Source: a virus
Strand: one strand, 5' to 3'
Virus record (IMG/VR): IMGVR_UViG_3300044617_000373
Coordinates: 1 to 29,131 of that record
Length of the DNA: 29,131 nt
Position numbers and translations under genes: made by a program. Shown piece by piece: positions 1 through 12,757 of this stretch (position 1 is the first letter of the stretch; every line of letters starts with the position of its first letter). The notes below the pieces were generated by a model that was given only the letters and a program-made list of their open reading frames with translations, was not told where the DNA came from and searched no databases.

Positions 1-69
1 TGCAGCCTTGCTTCTCAAGTTCTGAGATCCACACAGGAAGACGCTTGAAAGCATCCTCGTCGTAAGGGA
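1..69. repeat. Terminal direct repeat, left copy
   Basis: These 69 bases recur exactly as the last 69 bases of the window. They lie inside the replication initiator reading frame, which stays open and in frame when the two copies are merged. This is what assembly of a circular or circularly permuted genome produces. A biological terminal repeat of this length inside a gene is less likely. The unit length after closing is about 29,062 bp. Confidence 0.97.
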
Positions 70-223
70 AAAGACGACTCGCGAGGAGTCGCGAGGATGC
101 GCGAGCCCTCCCGACATCGTCGCAGCAGGAAAAGAGCCCTATGAAAAGGAGTCGAGCCTCTCTCGAAACTCTGCTTAGGCTTTCGGACTCCCAGAACTCG
201 GGCTTGATTGATCGGATTCTCAT
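1..223 (-). CDS. Replication initiator protein, N-terminal part (gene crosses the circular join)
   Basis: The gene starts at ATG 221-223 and runs off the left edge, continuing at 29062 down to 28548 for 245 residues in all. The N-terminus (MRISRIKPEFW, then SREARLLFIGL, a C-D-D-V-GRAR segment, LLASRLFPYDED) is the conserved winged-helix start of phage replication proteins found upstream of DnaB-type helicases. Such proteins are thought to bind the origin and load the helicase. The start codon shares 4 nt with the stop of the HNH gene (bases 220-223), so translation is probably coupled. Three 10-bp-phased repeats at 81-110 lie inside this part. The start choice is strong because the family motif begins at this Met. 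Confidence 0.88.
   Translation of the reverse strand, partial: MRIRSIKPEFWESESLSRVSREARLLFIGLFSCCDDVGRARASSRLLASRLFPYDEDAFKRLPVWISELEKQGC
81..110 (-). repeat. 10-bp-phased repeats in initiator gene, array A
   Basis: GCGAGGAGTC, GCGAGGATGC and GCGAGCCCTC start at 81, 91 and 101, each 10 bp apart. They encode part of the winged-helix domain, so protein constraint could contribute. Together with array B, about 180 nt away in the circle, they could be initiator-binding sites. Confidence 0.45.
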
Positions 224-708
224 TTGGCTTGGGATTTAGGGTTTTTTATTGCGGCAACCTGCTTTGAAAGCATCTCAATCCAAAGGCCGTCAATTATTCC
301 AAGCTCACAAGCATCACGCAAAACATTCAACGCCTTAACAACCGGGAAACCTGCTTCGTGTGCTGCACGGCAAAACGGGTGCAACACTCCTTCGTCATGG
401 TCTAATCCGTTCTTCATGTTCAAAGACTGTCGTGACATTTCTGCAATCACGGCAGGTTCAAAAACAGTGCACATTGAGTTAGACGTACTTGCTGGTTCAT
501 CTACCGATTTGTGGCAGTCAAAACAAAGTGTGACCATGGTGTTAAGATGGTATTCCCATGGGTTTCTTCTGCTGACGTAGTAGCAATGGTGAACGTGCAG
601 TTGCTTGGTTGTTGCACCGCAGCAAATGCAGGTGAAGTTGTCGCGTTGCAACACCAAGAGCCTGGTCTTCTGCCACTGCGGATGTTGGAGTTTTTCGGAA
701 TAGGTCAT
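220..708 (-). CDS. HNH endonuclease-like protein
   Basis: 162 residues. The N-terminal half is an HNH/zinc fold: C27-x2-C30 (CICC), then HVHH at 38-41, then C62-x2-C65-H66 (CFDCH). The two Cys pairs would bind structural zinc and the His cluster would form the beta-beta-alpha-metal active site. The C-terminal 90 residues have no fold I recognise. HNH proteins are common in phages, often helping terminase cut DNA or acting as homing nucleases. This one precedes the initiator and overlaps it by 4 nt, so it belongs to the replication operon. No phage-like gene is interrupted by it, which argues against a simple homing insertion. Its exact substrate is unknown. Confidence 0.8.
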   Translation of the reverse strand: MTYSEKLQHPQWQKTRLLVLQRDNFTCICCGATTKQLHVHHCYYVSRRNPWEYHLNTMVTLCFDCHKSVDEPASTSNSMCTVFEPAVIAEMSRQSLNMKNGLDHDEGVLHPFCRAAHEAGFPVVKALNVLRDACELGIIDGLWIEMLSKQVAAIKNPKSQAK

Positions 709-892
709 AATTCAAACGGAAAACCCCACCCAGACCGTGGTGAGAACTCGCGCAGAACCAACGCGACGTAACACGGAAAGGGTGGGGAAAATTGAGTTGA
801 ACATGGGTTCTGGTTGTGGTGTCGGCGTTTGCTTCTCACGGCTCACGTCGACGGGCCGCTCCCTAGCTGACAGCCGGGGAGGTGTCCAGCCC
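709..892 (-). other. Largest intergenic region (184 bp), with hairpin and CA-rich leader
   Basis: This gap separates the exonuclease stop from the HNH start. On the minus strand it holds, in order, a CA-rich stretch (CGACACCACAACCAG) just before an ATG at 802-804, then the long hairpin at 724-787. The ATG opens a 30-codon frame ending at 712-714, 3 nt before the HNH start codon. That frame runs through the hairpin and resembles no protein I know, so I do not call it a gene. I found no clear sigma-70 -35/-10 pair. A terminator, promoter or leader role for the region is inference. Confidence 0.5.
724..787 (-). terminator. Long stem-loop, possible terminator or leader structure
   Basis: Outer stem CCCCACCC (724-731) pairs with GGGTGGGG (780-787). 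A second stem CCGTG (735-739) pairs with CACGG (772-776) across a symmetric 3-nt internal loop. An inner stem TCGCG (748-752) pairs with CGCGA (762-766). Read on the minus strand, the last stem arm is followed by TTTT, which suits a weak intrinsic terminator after the exonuclease gene. The T tract is short, so it could instead be an RNA leader for the replication operon. Confidence 0.5.
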
Positions 893-1555
893 TCAATAGG
901 CCGGGATCAGGATGTCGGCCACCTGCTTGGTGAGCTGCACATCCCGCAGGCAATAGTCAAGGGCTGCTTGACGGTTGGTAGCCCACAGCAGGCTGAAGTC
1001 GGCGCCGGTCCCCGTCTTGTCCCCGAGGCCCAGGTGCCGACAGATGGACCCGAGGCTGCCATGAGCTCGGGAGTCGCCTAGCTGCCACACCTCACGCAGA
1101 TCGACCACCAAGTCGTTCCAATAGCGTCCCTGTCGCAGCCAGTACGGAGGCATGATCCTGTGCTTCCAGGAGCGCTTGATCAGGAATGGAAGGTCGAAGG
1201 CCTTGATGTTGAAGCCGATCAGTTTGGGCTGCCGTTCATAATGATTGAGCAGCGTCCAAAACTGGAGCAGTAGCGCTGCCTCACCGTCGGCATCGGAGCA
1301 CAGCACCGCGGGCTCCTGGTGCTCCATGCGGTAGCCTATGCACAGCACCTGGCCGCTCAGGGCATCCAGGGCAGCGTTCTTGATGTAGTCGGCGGTGTGT
1401 GACTCCTCGGCTTTCTGAAGCTTCTCGGCGATCATGTCCGGGTTCTTCACGTTACCCAGCTTTACGTCAGCTGGGTTGAACGGAGGGATATTGAGTTGAT
1501 TGAGCGGGAGTGGCCCGGTCTCGATGTCGAAGATGATGGTTGGATTGGCTGGCAT
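893..1555 (-). CDS. 3'-5' exonuclease, PolB-type DEDDy fold
   Basis: 220 residues. Exo I motif FDIET gives D10 and E12. Exo II is GFNIKAFD with D121. Exo III is YCLRD with Y201 and D205. These are the four metal-binding acids plus the tyrosine of the DEDDy exonuclease family, as in the stand-alone relatives of the PolB proofreading domain. It would remove 3' nucleotides from DNA and could serve proofreading, recombination or host DNA breakdown. No polymerase gene is present in the genome, so it works free or with the host replicase. It starts at ATG 1553-1555, 91 bp after the sigma4/alpha-CTD gene. Confidence 0.85.
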   Translation of the reverse strand: MPANPTIIFDIETGPLPLNQLNIPPFNPADVKLGNVKNPDMIAEKLQKAEESHTADYIKNAALDALSGQVLCIGYRMEHQEPAVLCSDADGEAALLLQFWTLLNHYERQPKLIGFNIKAFDLPFLIKRSWKHRIMPPYWLRQGRYWNDLVVDLREVWQLGDSRAHGSLGSICRHLGLGDKTGTGADFSLLWATNRQAALDYCLRDVQLTKQVADILIPAY

Positions 1556-1646
1556 TGTCTGAATGGTTGAGATTGTCGCGCGTTTGTCCCGATGCGCGCC
1601 CCCGGTTACCCACGAGTCCCAGCAGCAACAGGCTGCCGGAAAGTTA

Positions 1647-2042
1647 TTAGATCGGTTTGCCGCAATGAGGGCAGACGGTCTTGGTCAATGGCTGTCTTAC
1701 GGTGGGCACGCCCAACCATTCGCAGATCTCACGATAGGAGACCCACCCGAACCCACGCACCGACCTGGGCTGCAGGTGGCCTAGGTTGTAAAGGTCGAGA
1801 GCCTCCTGCCGGCTCTTGATGGCTAGGCTTTCCAGGATGTTGAACGTCCTGGTCGAGAACGGGAAGCCCCACACCCGCAGGATCTCCTCGTGCTTCTGTG
1901 CTGCCTGCTCGATCTGATTGATCCGTTGGCGGCTCAGGTTAAACCGTTTGCCGATCTCCTCTAGGGTGTAGCCTTCGGATCTTAGCTGCACCACCTCGGG
2001 CACCATGTGGGTCAGCTTCATCGTGGGTTTACGGGTCTTCAT
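1647..2042 (-). CDS. Transcription-factor-like fusion: sigma region 4-like HTH + RNAP alpha-CTD-like domain
   Basis: 131 residues. Residues 15-50 resemble sigma-70 region 4.2 (GYTLEEIGKRFNLSRQRINQ, then IEQAAQKH). Residues 61-112 align without large gaps to the C-terminal domain of bacterial RNA polymerase alpha. R65-x2-N68 matches E. coli R265-x2-N268, G99 matches G296, S102 matches S299 and E105 matches E302, all of which are UP-element or sigma contacts. K298 is replaced by V101. The C-terminus ends in CPHCGKPI, half of a zinc ribbon. Both domains suggest a protein that binds promoter DNA or host polymerase parts and redirects transcription. It follows the SSB-like gene by 3 bp. Met8 is an alternative start. 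Confidence 0.68.
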   Translation of the reverse strand: MKTRKPTMKLTHMVPEVVQLRSEGYTLEEIGKRFNLSRQRINQIEQAAQKHEEILRVWGFPFSTRTFNILESLAIKSRQEALDLYNLGHLQPRSVRGFGWVSYREICEWLGVPTVRQPLTKTVCPHCGKPI

Positions 2043-2045
2043 GGC

Positions 2046-2786
2046 TTAGAAGGGCACATCGTCAAAGTCGGGCTCGTCGGCCTTAGCCAGCTCCTCAAGG
2101 CGCTTTGTAACCGCGACGATCAGGGCAATGTCTTCAGGCGTCTTGCCGCTGGAGACTTTGGCCTTGGGCAGCCAATGCTCGGCCAGGCCGCGCACGGCGT
2201 CCGGGGTCAGCTCTGAGAGCGCCACGCCCTTGAACTTGCCCACGTGCACCTTCACCTCGGCAATCTTGACCGGCGCCGCGGTGGCCGGCGTCACCGTCTT
2301 TACCTTGTCGTCGTCCCTGGGCGGCCTGTCCTCCAGGCGTACCCACAGTCCCGATGGCTGGAGAGGCTCGCCGCTCTTGTGCGGCATGATCAACTTGATG
2401 TTGCTAAAGGTCTTGGTGCCGTCCCTCGATTGCTCGTGAACGATCACCACGGTGGCTGGTCGGCCGATCAGGTTGTCGAGGTTGAGGCTGACGGTCTCCT
2501 CGGCGGTAAGGGCTCGTCCATGCCAGTCCTTGAGGAACTTGGTCAGGCCGGCCTTTTCGTGCAGGCTGGCGGTCATCGGCGCCGTCATGACTACCCAGGG
2601 CTGCACCGGGTTGCGTGACTGGTCGATCAGATCCAGCTCGAAGGCGATCTTGAACTTCTGTTTCACCCCATATTCTGTGTCGTAGGCTTTCAGCGGTGTA
2701 ATGTCGACACAGACCGCGCGGCCTGTGTACTCGGGGCAGGGTGTGAAGTTCCCGCTGCTCGGTTTCGTTGATACTGTGATTCCCAT
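2046..2786 (-). CDS. Single-stranded DNA-binding protein-like
   Basis: 246 residues. The N-terminal 150 residues form a beta-rich region with a conserved phage SSB/DUF669-like flavour (GNFTPCPEYTGRAVCVDITP, an FKIAFELD strand, an FLKDWHGR segment). A proline- and lysine-bearing linker follows, then a helical region. The last residues, DEPDFDDVPF, are a typical acidic, aromatic-ending SSB tip that recruits replication proteins. It would coat single strands during replication or recombination. The start codon is not coupled to the previous gene (32 bp gap) and follows a CA-rich leader with no Shine-Dalgarno. Confidence 0.68.
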   Translation of the reverse strand: MGITVSTKPSSGNFTPCPEYTGRAVCVDITPLKAYDTEYGVKQKFKIAFELDLIDQSRNPVQPWVVMTAPMTASLHEKAGLTKFLKDWHGRALTAEETVSLNLDNLIGRPATVVIVHEQSRDGTKTFSNIKLIMPHKSGEPLQPSGLWVRLEDRPPRDDDKVKTVTPATAAPVKIAEVKVHVGKFKGVALSELTPDAVRGLAEHWLPKAKVSSGKTPEDIALIVAVTKRLEELAKADEPDFDDVPF

Positions 2787-2818
2787 GTGTTTGCTTTGTT
2801 GTGTCGTTGTTGTTGTGT

Positions 2819-3010
2819 TTACCTGGAGGCTTGTTTCTCGACCTCCGAAAGCTGTTTTGCCATCCGGTCGTACTGCGCCCAGTAGTCGGGCCAGGTTGCC
2901 TTGATCTTCGCCAGGTTGTCCTGGTCGGCCACCAGTGCCGCGGCGCCCAGCTTGCGAACGAAAGAGCCGCCGTATTCGATCATGGTGCGTGCTACGTCGA
3001 AGTCCTTCAC
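2819..3010 (-). CDS. Hypothetical protein, 63 residues
   Basis: Starts at GTG 3008-3010, which overlaps the preceding stop as GTGA. The N-terminal half is uncharged-to-hydrophobic (FVRKLGAAALVADQDN) and the C-terminal half is a charged helix with aromatic residues (ATWPDYWAQYDRMAKQL). No family recognised. It is the last member of the chain of overlapping small genes. Confidence 0.6.
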   Translation of the reverse strand: MKDFDVARTMIEYGGSFVRKLGAAALVADQDNLAKIKATWPDYWAQYDRMAKQLSEVEKQASR

Positions 3011-3156
3011 TTGGAGCCTTTCCCGCGTTTGCGTGTGAAGAAGGACATCGAGCCGATCTTGATCTTCCGGGCAGCCCGATAGGCCTCCCCGGCGTCCTTC
3101 TTGGTCAGGTGGTAAGGGCCGGTGCCCTCCTGTTGGATTTGTTGAGCTGATTTCAT
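3007..3156 (-). CDS. Hypothetical protein, 49 residues, basic C-terminus
   Basis: ATG 3154-3156 overlaps the upstream stop by 4 nt and the stop overlaps the next GTG by 4 nt. The sequence begins MKSAQQIQQEGTGPYHLT and ends FFTRKRGKGSK. The C-terminal third is rich in Arg and Lys, which would suit nucleic-acid contact, but no motif is recognised. Confidence 0.6.
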   Translation of the reverse strand: MKSAQQIQQEGTGPYHLTKKDAGEAYRAARKIKIGSMSFFTRKRGKGSK

Positions 3157-3344
3157 TGCAGGATGAAGTCGAAGTTGTTCTGCCAGGTGTCTGATAAACG
3201 GTTGTAGGTATCGTTCTTGATGCGCCAGGTGCGCGGGTCTCTAGTGGTCCCGCTGTGCCGGCACTTGATCCGCACGTCGATGTTCTGGATCGCCGTGTTA
3301 CGCAGTTGGTGATCTGGCGGCAGTTCGTGCAGTTTGGTGATCAT
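3153..3344 (-). CDS. Hypothetical protein, 63 residues
   Basis: Start chosen at ATG 3342-3344 (MITKLHELPPDHQLRN) because it overlaps the upstream stop by 4 nt and has GGAG 5 nt upstream. Charged and soluble, with a WRIKNDTYNRLSDTWQNN segment. No family recognised. Confidence 0.6.
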   Translation of the reverse strand: MITKLHELPPDHQLRNTAIQNIDVRIKCRHSGTTRDPRTWRIKNDTYNRLSDTWQNNFDFILQ

Positions 3345-3544
3345 GGTTGCTCCGTAAGTTGTTTGATGTACTTGTTTCTCTGCTTTGGCGTTAGTGACAC
3401 AATGAATGCGAGTGTCTCGACCGCATTGACCGAGTGGATGAGTTTCCAATGTCCCCTTGCTGCGTCCAGTTGCTTCGCTCGTTCCATATCCACAATCAGA
3501 ACTTCGCCGGCCATGGTGTGTCGGTAAATAAATGCTACGTTCAT
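3341..3544 (-). CDS. Hypothetical protein, 67 residues
   Basis: Start ATG 3542-3544 (MNVAFIYRHTMAGEVLIVDM) overlaps the upstream stop by 4 nt, with AGAGGG just upstream as a possible ribosome site. The N-terminal half looks like beta strands and the C-terminal half is helical (VETLAFIVSLTPKQRNKYI). Base composition is poorer in G+C than in the structural genes. No function assigned. Confidence 0.6.
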   Translation of the reverse strand: MNVAFIYRHTMAGEVLIVDMERAKQLDAARGHWKLIHSVNAVETLAFIVSLTPKQRNKYIKQLTEQP

Positions 3545-3744
3545 CGTCCCTCTAGCCATTTCTCCAAGTCATGGAGTTCATCCACTTTGGCTTCGAGTTC
3601 TTTGATGTGGTCGTTGAGACGATTGAGTTCCATCACAATGCCCCGTGGACGTATGTCGCTTAGGAAATTGCCTTCTGGAGTCTTGATGCTGAATCCATTC
3701 AGTGGAGGCATTCGTCGCAACACGATGTGGGTGTAGCGTTTCAC
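3541..3744 (-). CDS. Small coiled-coil protein with GTG start
   Basis: 67 residues. The start is GTG 3742-3744: it overlaps the preceding stop as GTGA and has a near-perfect AAGGAGG 6-7 nt upstream, inside the previous gene. The N-terminal part is basic and strand-like (RYTHIVLRRMPPLNGFSI). The C-terminal part is a heptad-rich helix (MELNRLNDHIKELEAKVDEL). Function unknown. Confidence 0.62.
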   Translation of the reverse strand: MKRYTHIVLRRMPPLNGFSIKTPEGNFLSDIRPRGIVMELNRLNDHIKELEAKVDELHDLEKWLEGR

Positions 3745-3869
3745 CGATTTACCTCCTTCAGTATGAAGTAAGCCGAACCAGCAATCACAAGTGCAAGCCA
3801 CAGTTCTGGATGTCGTTTGTGAAACTCCAGCTCATCTTTAACTAATTCAATAACTTCTTTGAGTTTCAT
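3741..3869 (-). CDS. Small single-span membrane protein
   Basis: 42 residues, starting at ATG 3867-3869 with AAGGAG 5 nt upstream. A charged N-terminal helix (MKLKEVIELVKDELEFHKRH) is followed by one hydrophobic segment (LWLALVIAGSAYFIL) and a short basic tail (KEVNR). Both ends overlap the neighbours by 4 nt. It would sit in the inner membrane. It lies far from the holin genes, so a lysis role is only possible, not shown. Confidence 0.62.
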   Translation of the reverse strand: MKLKEVIELVKDELEFHKRHPELWLALVIAGSAYFILKEVNR

Positions 3870-4099
3870 AGCTTCTCCTTTCCATCGCCAGACTCCACTC
3901 GTTCACGCCCCAGAGCCTCACGCGCATCGTCGCGGACATAGTTGTTCACGGCGTAGCCCAAGTCTTCAGGATCTAGGAATCGGTTGATGAATGACTCCAT
4001 TCGCTTGATCTTCTCATTGGCCGCATCCAACTCTGCTTGGAACTCAGCATCACAATGATCTTGCCAAGCCTGTTCGGCTGCATGGTCGGCGTTGCTCAT
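3866..4099 (-). CDS. Coiled-coil paralogue, 77 residues
   Basis: Begins MSNADHAAEQAWQDHCDAEF and carries DAANEKIKRMESFI, matching the NAANERIKRLEEAGD helix of the next two genes upstream. This is a third, more diverged copy of the same family. The C-terminal half (LDPEDLGYAVNNYVRD) is unlike the others. Overlaps both neighbours by 4 nt. Function unknown. Confidence 0.62.
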   Translation of the reverse strand: MSNADHAAEQAWQDHCDAEFQAELDAANEKIKRMESFINRFLDPEDLGYAVNNYVRDDAREALGRERVESGDGKEKL

Positions 4100-4323
4100 C
4101 GCTTGTTATTTTTGTATTTGTTCCATTGAAGGATTGCTTTGTATTCTTCATCGTCATTCTCAGCGTTCAGCATCGCATCCCCCGCCTCCTCCAGCCGCTT
4201 GATCCTAGCGTCAGCATTGTTCAGCGCCCGCTCCAAGGCACGCGCATGGTTGATAAGAACTTTTGGTTCAGGATCCATGTCATGTATAATTAGAAGCGTA
4301 TCTGTTCGCAGCGTATCACTCAC
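4096..4323 (-). CDS. SDTxRTD-type coiled-coil protein, 75 residues
   Basis: Starts at GTG 4321-4323 overlapping the upstream stop. It opens with MSDTLRTDT and contains NNADARIKRLEEAGDAM, close to the neighbour at 4320-4532. At DNA level 4179-4203 matches 4394-4418 in 24 of 25 bases, so the pair arose by duplication or has exchanged sequence. Small proteins starting SDTPRTDA are common in phage accessory operons; their role is unknown to me. Confidence 0.65.
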   Translation of the reverse strand: MSDTLRTDTLLIIHDMDPEPKVLINHARALERALNNADARIKRLEEAGDAMLNAENDDEEYKAILQWNKYKNNKR

Positions 4324-4532
4324 AGCTTGGCCTCCTTGGCTTTGGTCCAGATTTTGAGACGAATAAATACGTCCTCTTCCGTAACCATATTGTCCCCCGC
4401 CTCCTCTAGCCGCTTGATGCGTTCGTTGGCGGCGTTCAGTTCGCGTTCGAGTTGTTCAGAAAACTCAGCATCAACGGCGGTGTCCAAATCATGAAAACCA
4501 CGCTTCGCATCCGTCCTTGGTGTATCGCTCAC
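4320..4532 (-). CDS. SDTPRTDA coiled-coil protein, 70 residues
   Basis: GTG start at 4530-4532 overlaps the previous stop as GTGA. MSDTPRTDAKRGF is followed by a heptad-rich helix (LERELNAANERIKRLEEAGD). It is the clearest member of the local coiled-coil family, with copies at 3866-4099 and 4096-4323 and a related helix in 4529-5020. Probably oligomerises through the helix. Function unknown. Confidence 0.68.
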   Translation of the reverse strand: MSDTPRTDAKRGFHDLDTAVDAEFSEQLERELNAANERIKRLEEAGDNMVTEEDVFIRLKIWTKAKEAKL

Positions 4533-5020
4533 GGCTTGGCCTCCTTCCCAATCTTAGCGTCGTCCCAGCCCTGCAACAGGTTGTCCATTCGGGTGGTTCT
4601 CATGCTCGGAGATGGAGGGTTGATGAAGTCGTACATCGCGTTGCCAGCCAGTTCGAGTTGGTTGATGTGCTCATGGTAATGCTTCCGTTCTCCTTCCAGC
4701 TTGTCCCACAGGGCACGCAGACGACCTTCAAGTTCGGTGATGTGCTGGTTCGCATCAGTCAGTTTCTTCTGAATCTCTTCTATCGACCTGTCGTGAGAGT
4801 ATTCATCAAACGCAGCCTGTGCTTTGAGCATTGCGTCGGCTAGTGAGTACGCGTATTTAGCGACTTCATCGTTACTGACCGTTTGCTCAATAAGGTTTCC
4901 CTGTAACGCCGCAGCTGCGAAGTAGTCGCGGATTGAAATCCCGTAACATTCTGAGGTTGCTTCATCGTGTTGAAAAACAACAGGAAACGCCGGTCCGCCG
5001 TCGTTGATTGGTTGGTTCAT
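4529..5020 (-). CDS. INDGGPAFP-family phage protein with coiled coil
   Basis: 163 residues. Start set at ATG 5018-5020, overlapping the upstream stop by 4 nt. The N-terminus MNQPINDGGPAFPV with GISIRDYFAAAALQG is a recurrent phage accessory motif. The C-terminal half is a long helix with TDANQHITELEGRLRAL and LELAGNAM, echoing the IKRLEEAGDAM helices of the next genes. This suggests the coiled-coil part was shared or swapped among the four. Function unknown. Confidence 0.68.
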   Translation of the reverse strand: MNQPINDGGPAFPVVFQHDEATSECYGISIRDYFAAAALQGNLIEQTVSNDEVAKYAYSLADAMLKAQAAFDEYSHDRSIEEIQKKLTDANQHITELEGRLRALWDKLEGERKHYHEHINQLELAGNAMYDFINPPSPSMRTTRMDNLLQGWDDAKIGKEAKP

Positions 5021-5391
5021 TTCGATTCCTCCACTACCCCGCACGGGAGCCAGTTCTTACCGCCGTCGATGCTGTGTTCACGTTCGTCTAGCCACATATC
5101 TCTGTCAGCTTGGACAGACACCCAGCCGAGGAGAACTCGGTCCTGCGGGTTGCGCTTGAATCTCATCCACGCCCCCAGCGGCACCTCATCCGCAGTCCAC
5201 GGGCGGAGCGTTGCGGTGGGTTTGATGCGGTAGTCGCAGTTATCGAAATCCCAACAGGGTTCATCTGTATCGCACCAATCTGGTTTCAAAGACTCTTTTG
5301 GATTCCAATGCTTACCACACCGCTGGATTTCGTATCCGTCCAAATACGCCTCCATAATCAGAATAGCGGCTCTTGTTTCATTGCGTGTCAT
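5017..5391 (-). CDS. Hypothetical phage accessory protein, 124 residues
   Basis: Starts at ATG 5389-5391 with a 4-nt overlap. Two similar blocks are visible: DGYEIQRCGKHW ... YRIKPTATLRPWTADEVP and then GAWMRFKRNPQDRVLLGW. The phrase RPWTADEVPLGAWMR is a familiar ending/linker in small phage accessory proteins. Soluble, rich in Trp and Asp. No function assigned. Confidence 0.62.
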   Translation of the reverse strand: MTRNETRAAILIMEAYLDGYEIQRCGKHWNPKESLKPDWCDTDEPCWDFDNCDYRIKPTATLRPWTADEVPLGAWMRFKRNPQDRVLLGWVSVQADRDMWLDEREHSIDGGKNWLPCGVVEESK

Positions 5392-5591
5392 TGCTTGTCC
5401 TCCACTTTCACCATCGGAACAAAGTCCAATCGGTTGCTCTCGTCGATTGCAATGCCCCAGCCGTTGCGACGGCAGGACAGCTCGATTGCGTTGTAGATTT
5501 CGGTCATTGTCTTCTCTGGCAGATAGATGGATAGAAGTCCTTTGAATGTGATACGGTATTCCTGCTCTTGATCTTTGGTTTGCTTGCTCAT
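5388..5591 (-). CDS. Hypothetical protein, 67 residues
   Basis: ATG 5589-5591 overlaps the upstream stop by 4 nt and AGAGGAAGGA lies upstream. A charged N-terminus is followed by a strand and an amphipathic helix (MTEIYNAIELSCRRNGWGI) and closing strands. No family recognised. Confidence 0.58.
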   Translation of the reverse strand: MSKQTKDQEQEYRITFKGLLSIYLPEKTMTEIYNAIELSCRRNGWGIAIDESNRLDFVPMVKVEDKQ

Positions 5592-5749
5592 TGTTGTTCC
5601 TTCCTCTGTAGGTATTCAGTCACCGCTTCATCTGCCACAAACTGCAACTTGTAGCCCTTCTTGGTTGCGTAGTCCTTCAGCCGCTTGTGCGTGTCGTCGC
5701 TGACAACAAACACCTTTGCTGTGGGACGTTTTGGTTTGGTGGGATTCAT
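5588..5749 (-). CDS. Ribbon-helix-helix-like small protein, copy 2
   Basis: 53 residues, start ATG 5747-5749 (MNPTKPKRPTAKVFVVSDDT) with a 4-nt overlap. A short strand is followed by two helices (HKRLKDYATKKGYKLQFVAD, then EAVTEYLQRK), the size and pattern of ribbon-helix-helix DNA binders. It resembles the protein at 6422-6559 (THKALRDY / THKRLKDY; SKLQAIADKAI / YKLQFVADEAV). Likely an operon regulator or antitoxin-like fold; no toxin partner is seen. Confidence 0.6.
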   Translation of the reverse strand: MNPTKPKRPTAKVFVVSDDTHKRLKDYATKKGYKLQFVADEAVTEYLQRKEQQ

Positions 5750-5973
5750 CGTCTGTGGTGCTTGATGATCTGGGCCACGAACCGCCGCTTGCAGCCGATA
5801 GCCCGTGCCACCGTGTCGGTGTCGGCTCCGCTGTCCCACATCCGGTAGGCCAGCTCACCGTCGAAGGCCTCGACCGGCTGCGCCCAGTTTCTCGACAACT
5901 CCCGGGCCTTGGGCTCCGGGAATGAGATCCAGCCCGCGGCCACGGCGCTGGTGATCGCCTTCTTGCTGATCAC
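5746..5973 (-). CDS. Small HTH protein with GTG start
   Basis: 75 residues. The start is GTG 5971-5973, overlapping the resolvase stop as GTGA. The C-terminal helix-turn-helix is ADTDTVARAIGCKRRFVAQI. The N-terminal block AVAAGWISFPEP matches AIKHGWMSYPRG of the protein at 26908-27255, and the HTH regions also align, so the two are paralogues. Probably binds DNA; target unknown. Confidence 0.6.
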   Translation of the reverse strand: MISKKAITSAVAAGWISFPEPKARELSRNWAQPVEAFDGELAYRMWDSGADTDTVARAIGCKRRFVAQIIKHHRR

Positions 5974-6425
5974 TTGAGGCCCTCCGAGATCATGGCGTGC
6001 TCCAGGATAAGCACGGCGTCCGCGGTCTTCAGCGTGATCACCTGCCTGGGCTGCCTCTGCTGGGCGATCTGCTTGAGGTGGGCCTTCCATTTGGCCCCAT
6101 GGGTAGCCTTAGTGCCGGCGCCCAGCGTCTTCTGCCAGCGCTGGGGAGGCACCTCGATCACCCGGGTCTTCGAGGCTGCAATCAGGCCGTGCAGGAAGCC
6201 GACGTTGTAGCCGAAGTTGAACATGGAGCTGCCCGGGGCGCCCTTGCCGCCCACGTACCCGCCCACCTTCTCGATGTAGACCACGTCGCTGATGGCCAGC
6301 CTATCGCTCACCAGGACACTGATGTCCTGGTCGGTATCCGGCATGGAGTTCAGGATTATCCCGGAGGCGCCCAGGTAGGCCAGGCCGCCGCTCATGCCCG
6401 GGTCGATGGCAAGTATCCTGGTCAC
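5970..6425 (-). CDS. RuvC-like Holliday junction resolvase
   Basis: 151 residues with a GTG start at 6423-6425 that overlaps the upstream stop. The RNase H-like fold shows the RuvC acids: D8 in ILAIDPG, E52 in VVYIEKVGG and D136 in KTADAVLILEHA. Typical RuvC has about 170 residues, so this is a compact phage version. It would cut four-way junctions or branched DNA arising during replication and packaging, as a metal-dependent nuclease. It sits between two predicted DNA-binding small proteins in the coupled operon. Confidence 0.82.
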   Translation of the reverse strand: MTRILAIDPGMSGGLAYLGASGIILNSMPDTDQDISVLVSDRLAISDVVYIEKVGGYVGGKGAPGSSMFNFGYNVGFLHGLIAASKTRVIEVPPQRWQKTLGAGTKATHGAKWKAHLKQIAQQRQPRQVITLKTADAVLILEHAMISEGLK

Positions 6426-6559
6426 TTGGCAGCCTTTCTCAGCCAGGACAGGATAGCCTTGTCGGCGATAGCCTGCAGCTTAGATCCGGTCTGCAGGCAG
6501 TAGTCCCGCAGGGCCTTGTGTGTGGTGGGTGTCACGTTGATGGTTTTGGGTTTGGTCAT
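6422..6559 (-). CDS. Ribbon-helix-helix-like small protein, copy 1
   Basis: 45 residues from ATG 6557-6559 (MTKPKTINVTPTTHKALRDY), overlapping the endolysin stop by 4 nt. Strand plus two helices, a size and layout typical of ribbon-helix-helix repressors. Paralogue of the protein at 5588-5749. Function as DNA binder is inferred from the pattern only. Confidence 0.6.
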   Translation of the reverse strand: MTKPKTINVTPTTHKALRDYCLQTGSKLQAIADKAILSWLRKAAK

Positions 6560-6885
6560 TTCAGGTGCTTCTTGACCTTGGCCCAATAGGCCTCGGTCGC
6601 AGATTTGCGGTCTCCAGCAGGGCCCCCGTTCCAACGCCGGGCCAACTGCTCGGTGCTGGCGCCCTTGCCATAGGCCTTGAGGTAGGCCTCGCACACAGCC
6701 CGGGCTGCCACGCGGTTGGTCATCTCAGAGTGCCGGTAGTTGCTCCCGGTGATCCGGTTCACATCCAGGACCACACCGCGGTGGATCTGTAGTGGCCCTA
6801 GGGCGCGTCCGTTGTCGCCGATGGCCTGATCATTGCCGGCAGACTCTACGATCATCAGGGCGGTGATTAAGTTGTTTAGGTTCAT
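6556..6885 (-). CDS. Endolysin, lysozyme/transglycosylase-like
   Basis: 109 residues from ATG 6883-6885. The motif LITALMIVESAGND places a catalytic Glu at 14, followed by AIGDNGRALGPLQIH, the usual layout of the lytic transglycosylase/goose-lysozyme fold. RRWNGGP and the end AYWAKVKKHL also fit compact phage endolysins. No signal peptide is seen, so it would need a holin. It lies about 10.5 kb from the holin-like genes and heads the chain of overlapping small genes. Its start is not coupled and follows the CA-rich leader GCAACACCACAGCA. Confidence 0.78.
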   Translation of the reverse strand: MNLNNLITALMIVESAGNDQAIGDNGRALGPLQIHRGVVLDVNRITGSNYRHSEMTNRVAARAVCEAYLKAYGKGASTEQLARRWNGGPAGDRKSATEAYWAKVKKHLK

Positions 6886-6971
6886 TGCTGTGGTGTTGCT
6901 GTGGGTTGCTATGTTGCGCGTTGGCCAGTCGCGCCCCTGGTTGGATGGTATTCGCCCCATCCGGGCGTAAA

Positions 6972-7112
6972 TTATTCCTGGTCGTTTTCGATGGCCTCAA
7001 TGAGCTGGCCGTTGACGATGGTGATGCCGTGGTCGGCCAGCATTGCGAAGATCGAAAGGTTTGTTTCGGCCTGTTTGGTGGCGATCTCAGCGAGCTTTTC
7101 GTTCTTGGTCAT
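6972..7112 (-). CDS. Hypothetical protein, 46 residues
   Basis: Begins MTKNEKLAEIATKQAETN and ends with an acidic segment (IEAIENDQE). Helical N-terminus and a short strand pair (HGITIVNGQLI). No Shine-Dalgarno; it follows a CA-rich leader sharing 16 exact bases with that of the endolysin gene, which is the main support for its being real. No function. Confidence 0.55.
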   Translation of the reverse strand: MTKNEKLAEIATKQAETNLSIFAMLADHGITIVNGQLIEAIENDQE

Positions 7113-7246
7113 GTTTTGCTTTGGTTTGCTGTGGTGTTGCTTTCGACGTGATCAAGATGGCCTATGCCTCGACTTCCGTCTACAGAGAAAACTGTTTTTC
7201 TGTAGATTTTGAAGAAAACCCAATGTTTGCAGGGGTTAAACAAGGG
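7113..7246 (-). promoter_or_regulatory. Intergenic region with inverted repeat and CA-rich leader
   Basis: 134 bp between the winged-HTH gene and the 46-residue gene. It is AT-rich around an inverted repeat TCTACAGA (7179-7186) / TCTGTAGA (7199-7206), extended by A/T pairs with one bulged base. There is no T tract after the stem. The position before the small-gene operon fits an operator or promoter region, but no convincing -35/-10 pair is visible. The end nearest the gene is the CA-rich leader (7126-7141 repeats 6885-6900 exactly). Confidence 0.45.
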
Positions 7247-7495
7247 TCACTTCTCGGTCGAAATGTGCCTGAAGTGCGGCACCGGATAGGATCCTCGGCT
7301 CAAACACGGCACCCTGAACTTCTGAGTTTCCATCAGGCCAGACTCGATAGCCACCCGCAGCAGCCTGCCTGTCTGACCGCCCTTGAGACCCCATTCCTGG
7401 CCCCATTGATCCCGGGTTTTCCAATCGGGCCCAGGGTTCTCCATGGACTTGTTGATCTCGGCTCGAATGAGTTTTAGAAGCTGGGCAGATTCCAT
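7247..7495 (-). CDS. Small winged-HTH-like protein
   Basis: 82 residues; start taken as ATG 7493-7495 (MESAQLLKLIRAEINKSMEN), overlapping the phosphoesterase stop by 22 nt. The middle, TRDQWGQEWGLKGGQTGRLL then VAIESGLMETQKFRV, has the helix-turn-helix-plus-wing pattern. It precedes the intergenic region that leads into the small-gene operon, so it could regulate that operon. A longer form from GTG/ATG upstream is possible. Confidence 0.58.
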   Translation of the reverse strand: MESAQLLKLIRAEINKSMENPGPDWKTRDQWGQEWGLKGGQTGRLLRVAIESGLMETQKFRVPCLSRGSYPVPHFRHISTEK

Positions 7496-8223
7496 CGTTT
7501 TTCTCCTTGGGACCACTGGTGAACGTAAAGCTGGGCGCTGTCCTCGGTGTATTCACCGAAAACGATGCCATGCGACCAGGCCAATGTACCACGTCGCCGC
7601 AGCGCGTAATCCATGCATGGAGCGTCCGCAAGCGTCCCGGGCGACAGACACACCGGATTGTCGCTGCGGCGCCCTGTAGCCATGCCTGCGCGATGCGCGT
7701 GAGCCACCACGGTGTTGCCCCAGGTCTCCGCGGTGTCCCGCAGGAAGTTCTCGCTGTACAGCAGGCCGTGTCCCCAGGAATAGCCGCCCAGCTTGTACCA
7801 GCTCCTGGGCAGCACGTCGTGGTGTTTGATGAACACTCGGGCGTGCCGCTCAATAGGCTCTTTCATCTTGTCCCAGATGGCCTCGGCAAAGCCCCGCACC
7901 ACGGTGTTGTGGTGGTGCAGGTATTTCAGGGCACGCTGGTCGTGGTTGCCCATGATGAACACCGTCGGCCTTAAGGCATCCAAGAACTCCCGGCCACACT
8001 CGATGTCATCGAGGTAATCGTCGGCATGATCCGAGTCATCCGGGTTGGCCAGAGAGCCTGCTCGGAGGCTGGCCAGGTCGTAAGCGTCCCCGAGGTGGAT
8101 TACCTCGTTGGGCCTGTACTGCTCCCGAAATAAGAGCACCGCGGCCAGGGCGTCCTTGTTGGCCCGGTTACCGTGGGAGCAACCGACAGCCATCACCCGG
8201 CGCCGGGTTGGAACGATTGTCAC
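7474..8223 (-). CDS. Calcineurin-like metallophosphoesterase, altered first motif
   Basis: 249 residues with GTG at 8221-8223 (Met11 at 8193 is an alternative). Motifs: GCSHGN (15-18 region), GDAYD with D46, GNHD with N93 and H94, WGHG with H152, and AHAH with H175 and H177. These are the calcineurin-like phosphoesterase signatures, which bind two metals and cleave phosphoesters. The usual first motif is DxH; here Cys15 replaces Asp. Possible targets are nucleotides or nucleic acid ends. It sits between tail genes and the regulatory genes. Confidence 0.76.
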   Translation of the reverse strand: MTIVPTRRRVMAVGCSHGNRANKDALAAVLLFREQYRPNEVIHLGDAYDLASLRAGSLANPDDSDHADDYLDDIECGREFLDALRPTVFIMGNHDQRALKYLHHHNTVVRGFAEAIWDKMKEPIERHARVFIKHHDVLPRSWYKLGGYSWGHGLLYSENFLRDTAETWGNTVVAHAHRAGMATGRRSDNPVCLSPGTLADAPCMDYALRRRGTLAWSHGIVFGEYTEDSAQLYVHQWSQGEKRWNLPSF

Positions 8224-8266
8224 AGAAGATTACAAGCATTATCTGCGGCGATGATCAAGGCACTAG

Positions 8267-10957
8267 CTAGATGCCCTTCAGATCCACCAGGCTCAGGGTC
8301 AGGTACTTCTGGTCGTTGGTCGTGGCGTCGAAGTAACTGGCGATCACCTGGGTCTCTCGTTCCGAGTAGGAACGGTAGGGCTTCACCCGGGTGGCCAGGA
8401 CCGCCGGGAACTCGGTGGGCTGGCCGTTCTCAGTCTGCCAGTTGCCCGAGGTGAATCCGAACCGCCGGCACCAGGTCTGCAGGTTCTGGGGCGGCACAAA
8501 CCAGTAATCGGTGCCGAAACTGTCCTGGCCTTGGAAGCATTGGACGCCGTAGCCAGTCAGAAGATCGTAGCCGGCTTGGTCGGTGTACCAAGCGTCCTCG
8601 TCAAAGTCAGGCTCGTAGCCGGTGCCAAAGAAGCTGGGTAGCCCAGGGGCCTTATCCATGGTGCAGAGGCAGTCGGAGCGGGTCCACGAATCAAGGCGCC
8701 ATTGCAGCAGGTTCCAGAGCCAGGCGCTCTTGGGGATCTTGTGGAAGAATGGGCCTGTGCCGGGGCCGCCGTTAAGGGTCAGCAGAGGGCGGTAGGGAAT
8801 ATCGAACACATCGTCGATGTGTCCTCCATTGTCGAACTTGATCGAGGTCAGCCTGTCCTGGTAGGTGGCCACCGTGTTCGAGGTCTGCAGCGGCACCGTC
8901 GATGCAAAACGAGATCCCTCTCGATCTTTGAAGATGTCGTCGATCCCTGCCTGGAATAGACCAGTCGGCCCTTGTGCGAACTTCGGTGTCTTGTTTGGGC
9001 TGCCTGGGATTCGCACCGAGGCATCGACGCCGTTGGGGCCGCCCCATTTGTTGACCCAGAAGTCGGCCTCGAATCCAGCGGTCGCAAGCTGGTCAGGGTT
9101 ACCGAACTGGGCTCGCATCAGCTCGTTGTCGTAGTTGCCAGATGAGAATCCCCAAGGGCCTCCTGGTGGGATGAAGGCAGCGTTGATCGAGCCCTGGTAG
9201 AACAGGCTGGAGGTCGCCACATTGTTGCCGATCTTGGTCGGGAACAGGTGGAACCATTGGCCGGTGACATTGTTTACCCGTGAAGGCCCGATCAGCACCG
9301 TCTTGTCGCTTGAGGAAAAGTAGAAGTTCTGCCAGGCGCCCACACCGAACCCAGGGTCATGGTTCCTGACGTAGAGCTGGCCTGAGGTGGCATAGGCCTC
9401 GTAGTCGATCAGGAGGTTGCCGTCGATGCCAATAGGGTTGCCGACGCTGCAGACCAGGCCTTGAGGTGTCAGCCTGAGTAGGCCGACCCGGTCCTCGGTG
9501 ATGTCGTGGACATCATCGTAATTGTTCAGGAAGCCCTCTTCAACAGCCAGCCGGCGCCGAACGTCGATGGCCTTGTCGAAGATTGTGGCCTCGTTACCGG
9601 CAGACCAGAATCCCTGAGGATAAACTGTTGAGATGGTGAGCGGTGTGGTGCTGATCTGCCACCTGGGCGCCGTTGAATCGCAGAAGATGTTGCAGTCGAC
9701 CGGGCTTATTTCGATCAAACCGCGGTCACTGGTTAGCTCGATGCTGTTGGCATTCTGCACCACGGTGATGCCAAGGCCTTCCAGGCGCTGCACCAGGCTT
9801 CCAACACCCGGGAAGTTGACCAGTCGTTCCTCGGAGATCTCACCGCTGGACCCGAAATAATAGCGCACCCGGGCACGTCCCCAGGTAAACACCAGGTCTC
9901 CGAGTTGCTGCCTGAAGTCCCCGGGATCGGCGTAGGTCTGGGGGTAAACCTGCCGGATGTCGTGATGCACCGTCGGGTCGATCTGGGCGCCCATCGTGTG
10001 CAGCCAGTCGAACATGATGAACGGGTTGGCCACGTTGTTGGCCTGGGCCGATCGTTCCAAGGCCAGGAAGTCCGATGTGTTGGCGCCCTGCCAGCTCGGT
10101 GGCCCTTCAGCAAAGAAGGGCACGTCCCCCGGGAAGAACGGGAAGAAATGGTAGCAGAACCCACCGTTAGGCCAGCGCGTTGCCCAGGTGCCGTCCTGGC
10201 GGCGTCGGAATGCCCTGACGGCTCCAGGACCAACGAACTGCCTGTCGGCGCTGCCATCGGGCAACTGCAGCAGCACCTGCACGGTCGAGGTGCCGCAGTT
10301 GTGGACCCGCCAGCAGTCGTAGCGCTGGTATGTGTTCAGGATCCGGAAGTCGGTCAGGCCCTCGATGGCGATCTCGGCCACCGCCAGCCGGTGCTTGTGG
10401 ATCCGACCAGGAGGCAGGGTGGGGTCGGAAGGCCCGAGGCTGCCGCGCACATAGGACGTGAGCCCGGATCCGGCCTGTGGATCCCAGCCGAGGTGCACGT
10501 CGTATTCGATTCCGGCCACTTCACGGCGCAACAGCTCGTAGCTAAAGTGGATCTTGCCGACGTCGCAGGTAAACGGATCTCCCGTGGTGCTGTGGTGGTC
10601 GACGTAGACCTGGCCGCCGGCCACATCCAGGTGCTTGTTCTCCAGCTTCGACAGCTCGATCCGCGCGGCCACCTGGTTGTGCTCGTCCCGGTAGGTGCCG
10701 ATGCCCGGGATGCTCGGGCTGGGTACGGCGCCGTCGTCCTTGAGCCTGAGGGCGGTCTCCGGGTCGTTCCGGTAGACATACCAGACGCCATACGGGAAGG
10801 GCGCCGACCATTGGGCAAAAGGTGAGAACCGGGAACTCGCCCACAGAGGCCCCATCCCGTTCAGAGCCAGTTGGCACTTCTTGTCGAATCGGCTGTAAAG
10901 ATTGTTCAGGTTGTAGGCCGTGAACATCTTGTCGAGCCTGCCAGTGGCGTAGGGCAT
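8267..10957 (-). CDS. Large tail tip / central fibre protein, unrecognised
   Basis: 896 residues, the biggest gene. It is rich in aromatic residues, Gly and Pro and has mainly strand-like segments, with no membrane segment or signal peptide. The N-terminal region (YGVWYVYRNDPETALRLKDD) and repeated Trp/Phe blocks do not match a family I know. It is the last gene of the tail module, after the tape measure and distal tail genes, where the host-contacting tip or fibre normally lies. It could also be a baseplate hub with enzymatic activity; no catalytic motif is obvious. Confidence 0.62.
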   Translation of the reverse strand: MPYATGRLDKMFTAYNLNNLYSRFDKKCQLALNGMGPLWASSRFSPFAQWSAPFPYGVWYVYRNDPETALRLKDDGAVPSPSIPGIGTYRDEHNQVAARIELSKLENKHLDVAGGQVYVDHHSTTGDPFTCDVGKIHFSYELLRREVAGIEYDVHLGWDPQAGSGLTSYVRGSLGPSDPTLPPGRIHKHRLAVAEIAIEGLTDFRILNTYQRYDCWRVHNCGTSTVQVLLQLPDGSADRQFVGPGAVRAFRRRQDGTWATRWPNGGFCYHFFPFFPGDVPFFAEGPPSWQGANTSDFLALERSAQANNVANPFIMFDWLHTMGAQIDPTVHHDIRQVYPQTYADPGDFRQQLGDLVFTWGRARVRYYFGSSGEISEERLVNFPGVGSLVQRLEGLGITVVQNANSIELTSDRGLIEISPVDCNIFCDSTAPRWQISTTPLTISTVYPQGFWSAGNEATIFDKAIDVRRRLAVEEGFLNNYDDVHDITEDRVGLLRLTPQGLVCSVGNPIGIDGNLLIDYEAYATSGQLYVRNHDPGFGVGAWQNFYFSSSDKTVLIGPSRVNNVTGQWFHLFPTKIGNNVATSSLFYQGSINAAFIPPGGPWGFSSGNYDNELMRAQFGNPDQLATAGFEADFWVNKWGGPNGVDASVRIPGSPNKTPKFAQGPTGLFQAGIDDIFKDREGSRFASTVPLQTSNTVATYQDRLTSIKFDNGGHIDDVFDIPYRPLLTLNGGPGTGPFFHKIPKSAWLWNLLQWRLDSWTRSDCLCTMDKAPGLPSFFGTGYEPDFDEDAWYTDQAGYDLLTGYGVQCFQGQDSFGTDYWFVPPQNLQTWCRRFGFTSGNWQTENGQPTEFPAVLATRVKPYRSYSERETQVIASYFDATTNDQKYLTLSLVDLKGI

Positions 10958-10959
10958 GA

Positions 10960-11169
10960 TCAGTAGAACCAGGACTCTTCAGCCGTCTGCACCGTGGTCG
11001 AGCCCACCGCGGTCTTCAGCGTCGTGCCGTTGGCATTCTGCTCGACCCGTTGGCCAGGCCCGGCGACGAGCTGGACCCGGCGCACGGCCTCGATCAGTTG
11101 ATTGATGGCCCGAGCATGGTCTGCCTTCAGGCCGCGCTCCGATAGCTTGGATGGCAGTTGTAAAGGCAT
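10960..11169 (-). CDS. Small tail-module protein, 69 residues
   Basis: Begins MPLQLPSKLSERGLKADHAR. An N-terminal helix (AINQLIEAVRRVQLV) is followed by a Gly/Thr-rich strand region (NGTTLKTAVGSTTVQ) like a small fibre or adaptor shaft. It ends 2 bp before the large tip gene, so it may be an adaptor to it. Function unproven. Confidence 0.58.
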   Translation of the reverse strand: MPLQLPSKLSERGLKADHARAINQLIEAVRRVQLVAGPGQRVEQNANGTTLKTAVGSTTVQTAEESWFY

Positions 11170-11172
11170 GGC

Positions 11173-11529
11173 TTAAATCTCGCAGAACTGGGCGAAGATC
11201 TTCACCGGGCTGTTCGAGGCTTTGACGTACATCGTCGCATCGACCCAGGGGATCAGGATGAACTGCCCGGCCGGGATCTGGAATGAGTACGGCGAGGAAG
11301 GCCCGATAGAGACCGGGTTGACCAGATCCAGATTGACCACGAGGAGACGGTAGGGTGTGGACAAGTCGGCGGTAAGATCCAGCGTTTCGTCGGTCGTGCC
11401 GACCACCTGGGTCTGTTGCCCCATGTCGGTGCCCGTCATGTTGGCCACCGTGCTATAGGACAGTGAATTGATCACGGCGCCGCCCTTGCTGGCGTAAAGC
11501 CGCGCGGACATCTCGACTTCGTTTGCCAT
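11173..11529 (-). CDS. Tail-module beta protein, tandem copy 2
   Basis: 118 residues. Close to half identical by eye to the 119-residue product of the next gene upstream: both share ARLYASK, GTDMGxQTQV, IPAG and LIP, and end FCE. The strand-rich pattern suggests a jelly-roll or Ig-like structural module. Lies between distal tail and tip genes, so probably part of the tail tip or a decoration. Confidence 0.65.
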   Translation of the reverse strand: MANEVEMSARLYASKGGAVINSLSYSTVANMTGTDMGQQTQVVGTTDETLDLTADLSTPYRLLVVNLDLVNPVSIGPSSPYSFQIPAGQFILIPWVDATMYVKASNSPVKIFAQFCEI

Positions 11530-11541
11530 AGGGTTGGTCGA

Positions 11542-11901
11542 TTAAACTTCGCAGAAGGTGGCCTGGATGGTCACCGCGGAGGTGTTAGCCAGTAGGTAGA
11601 GGGTGGCGCTGACGTAGGGGATCAGCAGGGTTTCACCGGCCGGGATCCGCATGGTGTAGGTGCCGGAGACAAAACCCAACTCGACGTAGTTGGTGTTATC
11701 CAGGTTGCTGATCAGCAGCTTGTAGGGGCTGGTGACATCGACCGGCACGTCGAGAGCCTCGACGGTCAGGCCGATCACCTGGGTCTGGGAGCCCATGTCG
11801 GTTCCGACCATGGTGGCGCTCTTGGTGTAGGTTACTGAGGGCAGGTAGGCTCCGTTCTTGGAAGCGTACAGCCGGGCGGTCATTTGGATTTCGTCTGCCA
11901 T
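11542..11901 (-). CDS. Tail-module beta protein, tandem copy 1
   Basis: 119 residues, paralogue of the following gene (11173-11529). Conserved blocks: MTARLYASKNG at the start, VGTDMGSQTQVIG in the middle, RIPAGETLLIPYV and the end ATFCEV. The duplication is tandem and diverged, with the C-terminal Cys-Glu kept in both. Structural role inferred from position. Confidence 0.65.
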   Translation of the reverse strand: MADEIQMTARLYASKNGAYLPSVTYTKSATMVGTDMGSQTQVIGLTVEALDVPVDVTSPYKLLISNLDNTNYVELGFVSGTYTMRIPAGETLLIPYVSATLYLLANTSAVTIQATFCEV

Positions 11902-11920
11902 AGAGGTGTGTCAGTTAAGG

Positions 11921-12757
11921 TTAGATGAAGGGATAGACCAATGTGTCGTAGGGGGCAAAAGTCCAAGCAATCACCTGTTCGACCTGGTTGGTCTTGGTGA
12001 TAAGGCTGGTCGAGTAGTTTGTCTGCTTCCAGCCCCAGGCTGTCCCTACGGGCGCCAAGGCCTGGCCGGTAGTCTGGTCGATGGGTGTCGGAGGAAGCAT
12101 CGAGACCACAGAAAACGGAAGATTCCAGGCTGTGGCAAATGATTCCCTGGTGTAGACCGGAGGGATGCCGTTGGGAACTTGAGGAAGCCCGAGGTTGCCG
12201 CTGAAGGTTGCGATCCTGGTCAGACTGACCCGGGCTGTCGGGAATGTGTCCTGGCCGCGGTAAAGCATCTGCCAGACCTTCTGGGCCAATGGCAGGGTCG
12301 AGATGTTGCTCTCCTGAATGCCTGGTAGCCTCTCACCGTTCTTGATGGCTGTCTCAATGATGTAGCGGTAAAGGGCAGGGTTGCCTGTCGAGTTGGCCTC
12401 CTTGTCGACAGCGGGTAAAGCGAACACCGAGACATCGAGGTAATCGGTGCGGAACTCGTATCGGATGTCAGCGATCTCACCCACCTGCGGGGCGGTCTGG
12501 TCTTGAATCGGAAGGCCTGGGTCGAATGAGGTGCCGCCGATGGTGACGGTGGCCTCGGAATAGGGGCCGTCCTCTCGAATGCTGTATTTGGCGCCCAGGG
12601 CCACCCATTGGGCCGATGCGAACCGGAGGGTGTCTTTGTCGCCCCGGAAAACCAGTTGAACCACCCGGCCGTTGCCGTTGTTGTCGTAGGCGCGGCTGAC
12701 CTCGATGTAGTCAGTTGCTACAGGATACGGAATTGGTAGCCCTTGAATTGTTGCCAT
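11921..12757 (-). CDS. Distal tail protein candidate
   Basis: 278 residues starting MATIQGLPIPYPVATDYIEV. Directly follows the tape measure with 1 bp between stop and start, the normal place of the distal tail (Dit-like) protein. Strand-rich with no catalytic motif. It contains YEFRTDYLDVSVFALP and a long aromatic C-terminal half. I do not recognise the family by sequence; the name rests on order. Confidence 0.55.
   Translation of the reverse strand: MATIQGLPIPYPVATDYIEVSRAYDNNGNGRVVQLVFRGDKDTLRFASAQWVALGAKYSIREDGPYSEATVTIGGTSFDPGLPIQDQTAPQVGEIADIRYEFRTDYLDVSVFALPAVDKEANSTGNPALYRYIIETAIKNGERLPGIQESNISTLPLAQKVWQMLYRGQDTFPTARVSLTRIATFSGNLGLPQVPNGIPPVYTRESFATAWNLPFSVVSMLPPTPIDQTTGQALAPVGTAWGWKQTNYSTSLITKTNQVEQVIAWTFAPYDTLVYPFI

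Follow-up and report, generated by a model that had tools for sequence, protein, structure and literature searches.

Introduction

Several phages redirect host RNA polymerase via small proteins that contact region 4 of sigma (sigma4) or the C-terminal domain of the alpha subunit (alpha-CTD). Mor of phage Mu is a dimeric activator that, unlike the protein considered here, carries no alpha-CTD module. What the two would have in common is a phage-encoded regulator at a promoter read by the host sigma70 holoenzyme (PMC4390567). Minimal phage sigma factors consisting of a helix-turn-helix (HTH) only are known from jumbo phages (PMC7824862), and share with the present protein a single HTH of the sigma-70 region 4 type (PF04545) and, presumably, use of the host polymerase by the phage. 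Compared with sigma-70 region 4 proteins and the minimal factors, the present protein lacks regions 2 and 3, has an incomplete region 4.1 and bears an additional alpha-CTD-like domain.

Searching GenBank phages with the E. coli alpha-CTD as query returned both phage alpha-CTD proteins and a protein of a gut element. Ruegeria phage vB_RpoS-V16 gp23, Microbacterium phage Mazun gp26 and Bacillus phage Goe8 gp5 resemble the present protein in their phage-borne alpha-CTD module and differ from it in that no sigma4 HTH was recognised in them (by Pfam for gp23 and gp26, by annotation and reading only for gp5). In gp23 (L262:2932-3798) the alpha-CTD is N-terminal (PF03118, 1.2e-10) and is followed by a MazG-type pyrophosphatase-like region; a RefSeq record of the same phage has 'pyrophosphatase' annotated at this place. 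The gut element MT835636.1 (L270) encodes HTH_17, Sigma70_r4 and RNA_pol_A_CTD in one 332-aa chain. As in the protein described below, sigma4 precedes alpha-CTD in a single chain; the extra N-terminal HTH and the long inter-module linker set it apart. No kinship with the present family was detectable beyond the modules, and the gut-element fusion appears from its sequence to have arisen independently. No description of such a sigma4/alpha-CTD fusion was found in the literature searched, in which coverage of subscription papers was slight. What the present family adds is the joining of known modules in compact form, the gut-element fusion of the same kind being uncharacterised.

Results

Gene and genome context

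The window analysed here is the 29,131-base IMG/VR virus record IMGVR_UViG_3300044617_000373. Its ends (1-69 and 29063-29131) are an identical direct terminal repeat of 69 nt, which suggests that the window probably represents an entire phage genome with terminal redundancy. Terminase, portal, a tape-measure-like protein, DnaB, a RuvC-like resolvase and a replication initiator are encoded in it, as is a head maturation protease domain within a longer chain (20002-22158, minus strand). The latter is a single 718-aa frame of which the N-terminal part matches the protease, and the remainder may be capsid protein, that is, a putative protease-capsid fusion. Elsewhere (4096-4532, minus strand), two adjoining small frames share the motif MSDT.RTD...LER.L..A..RIKRLEEAGD, accompanied by a 56-nt direct repeat with 75% identity.

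The gene of interest occupies 1647-2042, stop codon included. An initial sequence-only reading had proposed an open reading frame here with no strand given; the frame is real and lies on the minus strand, running from an ATG at 2042 down to 1647 and encoding 131 aa. It starts 3 nt past the stop of a 246-aa gene (2046-2786, minus strand; phrog_862). The encoded protein has DFDDVPF, an acidic tip of SSB type, at its C-terminus and is by this token presumably SSB-like. About 91 nt downstream of the 131-aa gene's stop begins a gene for a predicted PolB-type 3'-5' exonuclease (893-1555, minus strand; DNA_pol_B_exo2, Pfam E=3.5e-13).

Searches of viral contigs with the single sequence and with alignments gave at least 72 distinct relatives, in contigs of uncultivated phages, which share from 100% down to ~50% identity and form 10 clusters at 80% identity. 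Differences at codon positions 1/2/3 (3/2/24 between the window and L016, 24/19/50 between the window and L041) point to purifying selection on the 131-aa gene. Among GenBank phages, tblastn gave no match to the window protein at E<=0.01 and none to the relative L079 at E<=1; a match of the relative L061 covered the HTH stretch only. Among the GTDB contigs, a relative occurred in a phage-like one that had been binned as Verrucomicrobiota (L081). Other GTDB matches (L083, L122) were rejected as relatives, those examined being sigma-factor region 4, and a further weak match in a Verrucomicrobiota sample was a chance match inside a metallophosphoesterase.

The neighbourhood is largely fixed. The SSB-like gene immediately precedes the family gene in 108/131 related loci with room on that side, and the exonuclease gene immediately follows it in 148/151 with sufficient flank, in both counts with some contigs entered under two locus ids. 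Looked up in reverse from the exonuclease, 64 of the 67 loci with room encode the family protein and three do not, so that the sigma4/alpha-CTD gene, although usually present in the cluster, is a module that can be dispensed with. In these three loci (L430, L432 and L435) the SSB-like gene is followed by a short AAAACGAT...ATCGTTTT inverted repeat and then by the RNA element described below; in all three, the inverted repeat occupies the place of the missing gene.

Such neighbours raise the alternative that the 131-aa protein is a replication or recombination accessory, holding phage DNA through its HTH and a helix-hairpin-helix-like domain together with the SSB-like protein and the exonuclease, with no contact to transcription. 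The flanking SSB-like and PolB-type exonuclease genes in nearly all relatives would fit this proposal, as would the RuvC-like resolvase, DnaB and replication initiator of the same genome; helix-hairpin-helix folds are, moreover, common in DNA repair proteins. However, both domains resemble families of the transcription apparatus specifically, not helix-hairpin-helix families of repair. We regard an accessory role as rather unlikely, if the most serious competitor, and prefer a transcription regulator, to which we give slightly better than an even chance.

A sigma region 4.2-like helix-turn-helix

Residues 15-50 (1893-2000, minus strand) had been read as sigma-70 region 4.2, and the profile check agrees: Pfam Sigma70_r4 (PF04545) matches residues 18-48 with 33.9 bits (E=2.2e-8), above the curated cut-off of 24.1, and was found in all 22 family members scanned. 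The full-length model (pLDDT 83, pTM 0.67) places helices at 10-22, 27-34 and 38-58. Alignment to E. coli sigma70 sets R38, Q39, R40, N42 and Q43 on what we take to be R584, E585, R586, R588 and Q589. Over 72 family proteins, the recognition-helix positions Q39, R40 and Q43 are invariant and position 38 is R or K.

The alignment to the Sigma70_r4 profile begins only at its position 13 of 50. Judged from this, the 131-aa protein lacks the initial portion of region 4.1, the region that binds the beta flap in sigma. Pfam recognised no sigma region 2 domain in the protein, and Sigma70_r2 was found neither in the window genome nor in 19 related records, while control genomes were positive. Given a probably complete genome and no Sigma70_r2 in these 20 phage records, the host polymerase is the likely partner. 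Foldseek matches of the whole protein were driven by the HTH and were set aside: the leading ones, VirB/ParB, superposed poorly and had E-values no better than 0.07, and in the 3n97 rows chain A is a sigma chain.

A diverged alpha-CTD-like domain

The C-terminal domain (residues 55-112; 1707-1880, minus strand) is more diverged. The window's single sequence gave no Pfam match to PF03118 (RNA_pol_A_CTD); 10 of 22 relatives matched weakly (best E=0.014), and in the genome search two family members scored 11.8 and 13.4 bits, below the cut-off of 23.8. Aligning the family profile by hhalign with host alpha-CTDs (24 segments with some duplicates, drawn from E. coli and 13 other sampled genomes) gave a score of 26.7 (P about 7e-5 to 1e-4), and column-shuffled controls all stayed below it (maximum 17.6 in 200 shuffles and 16.0 in 300). 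When the family alone was searched as a profile against solved structures, the top match was the H. pylori alpha-CTD (2max), with E=0.07.

Sister phages encode a stand-alone alpha-CTD protein of 112 aa (L056:1416-1754, plus strand; also L057, L065 and L233-L238), which provides a bridge between the family and host alpha-CTDs. Its gene sits just upstream of a RuvC-like gene, the L056 protein reaches the PF03118 cut-off with 24.1 bits, and the bridging protein shares 37% identity over 67 aa with the window's 131-aa protein. It matches PF03118 at 3.8e-5 as against 0.2 for HHH_5, which also argues against the accessory role considered above. When the stand-alone protein was added to the profile and 177,635 PDB sequences were searched, four RpoA chains came out on top (E=5e-4, 1.8e-3, 2.3e-3 and 0.02), E-values of an iterative search that hold only if the protein added is truly related. 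The profile comparison, the shuffled controls and the bridging protein together bear out the initial suggestion that residues 61-112 are related to alpha-CTD, and support a diverged alpha-CTD linked to those of hosts through the bridging protein. No alpha N-terminal assembly domain was recognised by Pfam in the 131-aa protein.

An AlphaFold model of residues 53-119 (pLDDT 91, pTM 0.79) has helices at 54-58, 64-72, 78-86 and 100-110, which presumably correspond in position to helices 1, 2 and 4 of the E. coli alpha-CTD, helix 3 being replaced by a longer loop. Foldseek with this model against the PDB, with no host alpha-CTD positive control alongside, listed no alpha-CTD among the best 50 of 83 matches. 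This result and the score below the PF03118 cut-off would fit a resemblance due to chance, with the protein just another HTH DNA-binding protein. That reading, already disfavoured, is very improbable in our estimation in view of an hhalign score above all 500 shuffled controls, the RpoA chains heading the PDB search and the identity with the bridging protein.

Contact residues of the domain were compared over the 72 distinct family proteins, with E. coli numbering and roles for R265, N268, G296, K298, S299, E302, D259 and E261 as we take them to be. The proposed match of R65, N68, G99, S102 and E105 to E. coli R265, N268, G296, S299 and E302 was upheld: R65 and G99 are invariant (72/72 each), S102 and E105 nearly so (71/72 each), and N68 is mostly kept (68/72, otherwise R or H). 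The departure at position 101 from K298, noted initially as the only one among the residues checked, holds in 55/72 proteins with V or I; the other 17/72 have K or R, making it a trait of a subgroup. The DNA-contact (265) determinant is thus mostly kept, as the alignment supports well. D259 and E261 of the E. coli alpha-CTD touch sigma. In the alignment they fall on G59 and P61, within an invariant W58-G59-x-P61-F62, indicating that the sigma-contact (261) surface is gone.

Compared with RNA_pol_A_CTD proteins, the phage domain has in common the positions of R265, G296, S299 and E302, mostly that of N268, the positions of helices 1, 2 and 4 in the model, and homology at the profile level. It differs by the lack of alpha-NTD, D259/E261 and helix 3, by a 3-residue insertion, by the invariant WGxPF and C107, and by scoring below the Pfam cut-off. 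The overall layout of a sigma region 4.2-type HTH, ~5 residues and a diverged alpha-CTD with the 265 determinant mostly kept and the 261 determinant lost is, at the level of predicted domains, well supported.

Retention of alpha-CTD-type DNA residues with loss of the sigma-contact surface would also suit a protein that inhibits host transcription or competes with it. Such a protein would shut host genes off by covering -35/UP elements where host promoters are strong, or by binding to the polymerase of the host. The small size of the protein is in keeping with this, as is its faster divergence than that of the neighbouring exonuclease (~52-54% versus 70-79% identity in distant relatives). The absence of the gene from 3/67 relatives counts against it, and we consider such an inhibitor unlikely.

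The C-terminal CPHCG knuckle (residues 124-128; 1659-1673, minus strand) is a possible metal site. C124 and C127 are invariant (72/72 each) and H126 is found in 69/72. Zinc binding by CPHC together with a second chain, as suggested initially, is possible; because C107 and H89 are also invariant over the 72 proteins, an intrachain metal site with C107 and/or H89 is equally possible.

A structured RNA preceding the exonuclease gene

The spacer from the 131-aa gene's stop to the exonuclease start (~91 nt in the window, ~95-120 nt among relatives) contains a conserved structured RNA (1578-1639, minus strand). In 24 aligned sequences (the window and 23 related loci) it folds as an 8-bp hairpin plus an H-type pseudoknot, with 94.5% of cells paired and 38 cells with compensatory double changes against a shuffle mean of 12.7. 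Slid controls gave at most 13 such cells, a comparison in which the structure has the advantage of having been drawn from the same 24 sequences. Neither the window nor six relatives matched an Rfam family at the gathering threshold, and when window 1400-2200 was scanned permissively the matches were weak and at chance level.

The sequence pattern of the RNA core occurs at 127 distinct places among related loci, with the exonuclease downstream in 124/124 and the sigma4/alpha-CTD protein upstream in 116/116 where there is room. It is kept in all three loci that lack the sigma4/alpha-CTD gene, so the RNA belongs with the exonuclease gene and is separate from the protein. The RNA model also matched weakly a second time, at window 6883-6977 (E=0.02), close to where the SLT gene begins; these matches are probably due to chance. 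In addition, stop-codon readthrough into the exonuclease was rejected because the frames differ.

Discussion

The explanation we favour, by a cautious judgement only just on the positive side, is that the 131-aa protein is a small, two-headed, DNA-binding transcription regulator encoded by the phage and acting together with the host's RNA polymerase; that two modules binding DNA would serve to regulate this polymerase is what we infer. The Sigma70_r4 match above the cut-off, conserved HTH residues, the alpha-CTD homology, the contact residues kept (with K or R at position 101 in 17/72), a net charge of +8, the fixed place in the gene cluster and a probably complete genome in which no Sigma70_r2 was found favour a regulator, and the independent sigma4/alpha-CTD protein of the gut element is counted on the same side. 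Against it stand the Foldseek matches listed, in which no alpha-CTD appears, neighbours that are genes of replication and recombination and not of transcription, the three relatives that lack the gene, and a promoter scan that gave no recurrent site.

Mechanistically, the HTH would enter the major groove and recognise an operator or a -35-like sequence there, and the alpha-CTD-like domain would anchor in the minor groove next to it. One chain might thus occupy DNA normally held by host sigma4 and alpha-CTD, so that host RNA polymerase would be positioned or recruited at phage promoters or, where the protein overlaps them, blocked. The scan, of window 1-12000 for sigma-70-type promoters, gave 1 site against 3.4 expected, with no recurrent promoter-like site, and on first look no obvious operator was seen in the window-wide repeat list.

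It had been proposed at the outset that one phage protein with both modules could mimic or replace promoter-contact parts of the host polymerase. Profile evidence and conservation across the family support both modules together with the residues by which they would touch DNA; the loss of D259/E261, the incomplete region 4.1, the lack of an alpha-CTD among the Foldseek matches listed and the 3/67 relatives that lack the gene speak against full mimicry. In its strongest form, in which the protein acts in trans and takes over both of the contacts that host polymerase makes upstream at promoters, with -35 and UP-like DNA read by one chain, we think the proposal improbable. If true, phage promoters would be handed to polymerase with no need for the contacts of host sigma4 and alpha-CTD, and this would be a phage class of promoter specificity of which no description was found in the literature searched.

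A phage protein made from relatives of both modules would allow one to test, in compact form, how the pair of upstream contacts at promoters can be joined and rewired, and the 72 sequences, together with the bridging stand-alone alpha-CTD, give concrete residues for it, namely R40, Q43, R65, G99 and S102.
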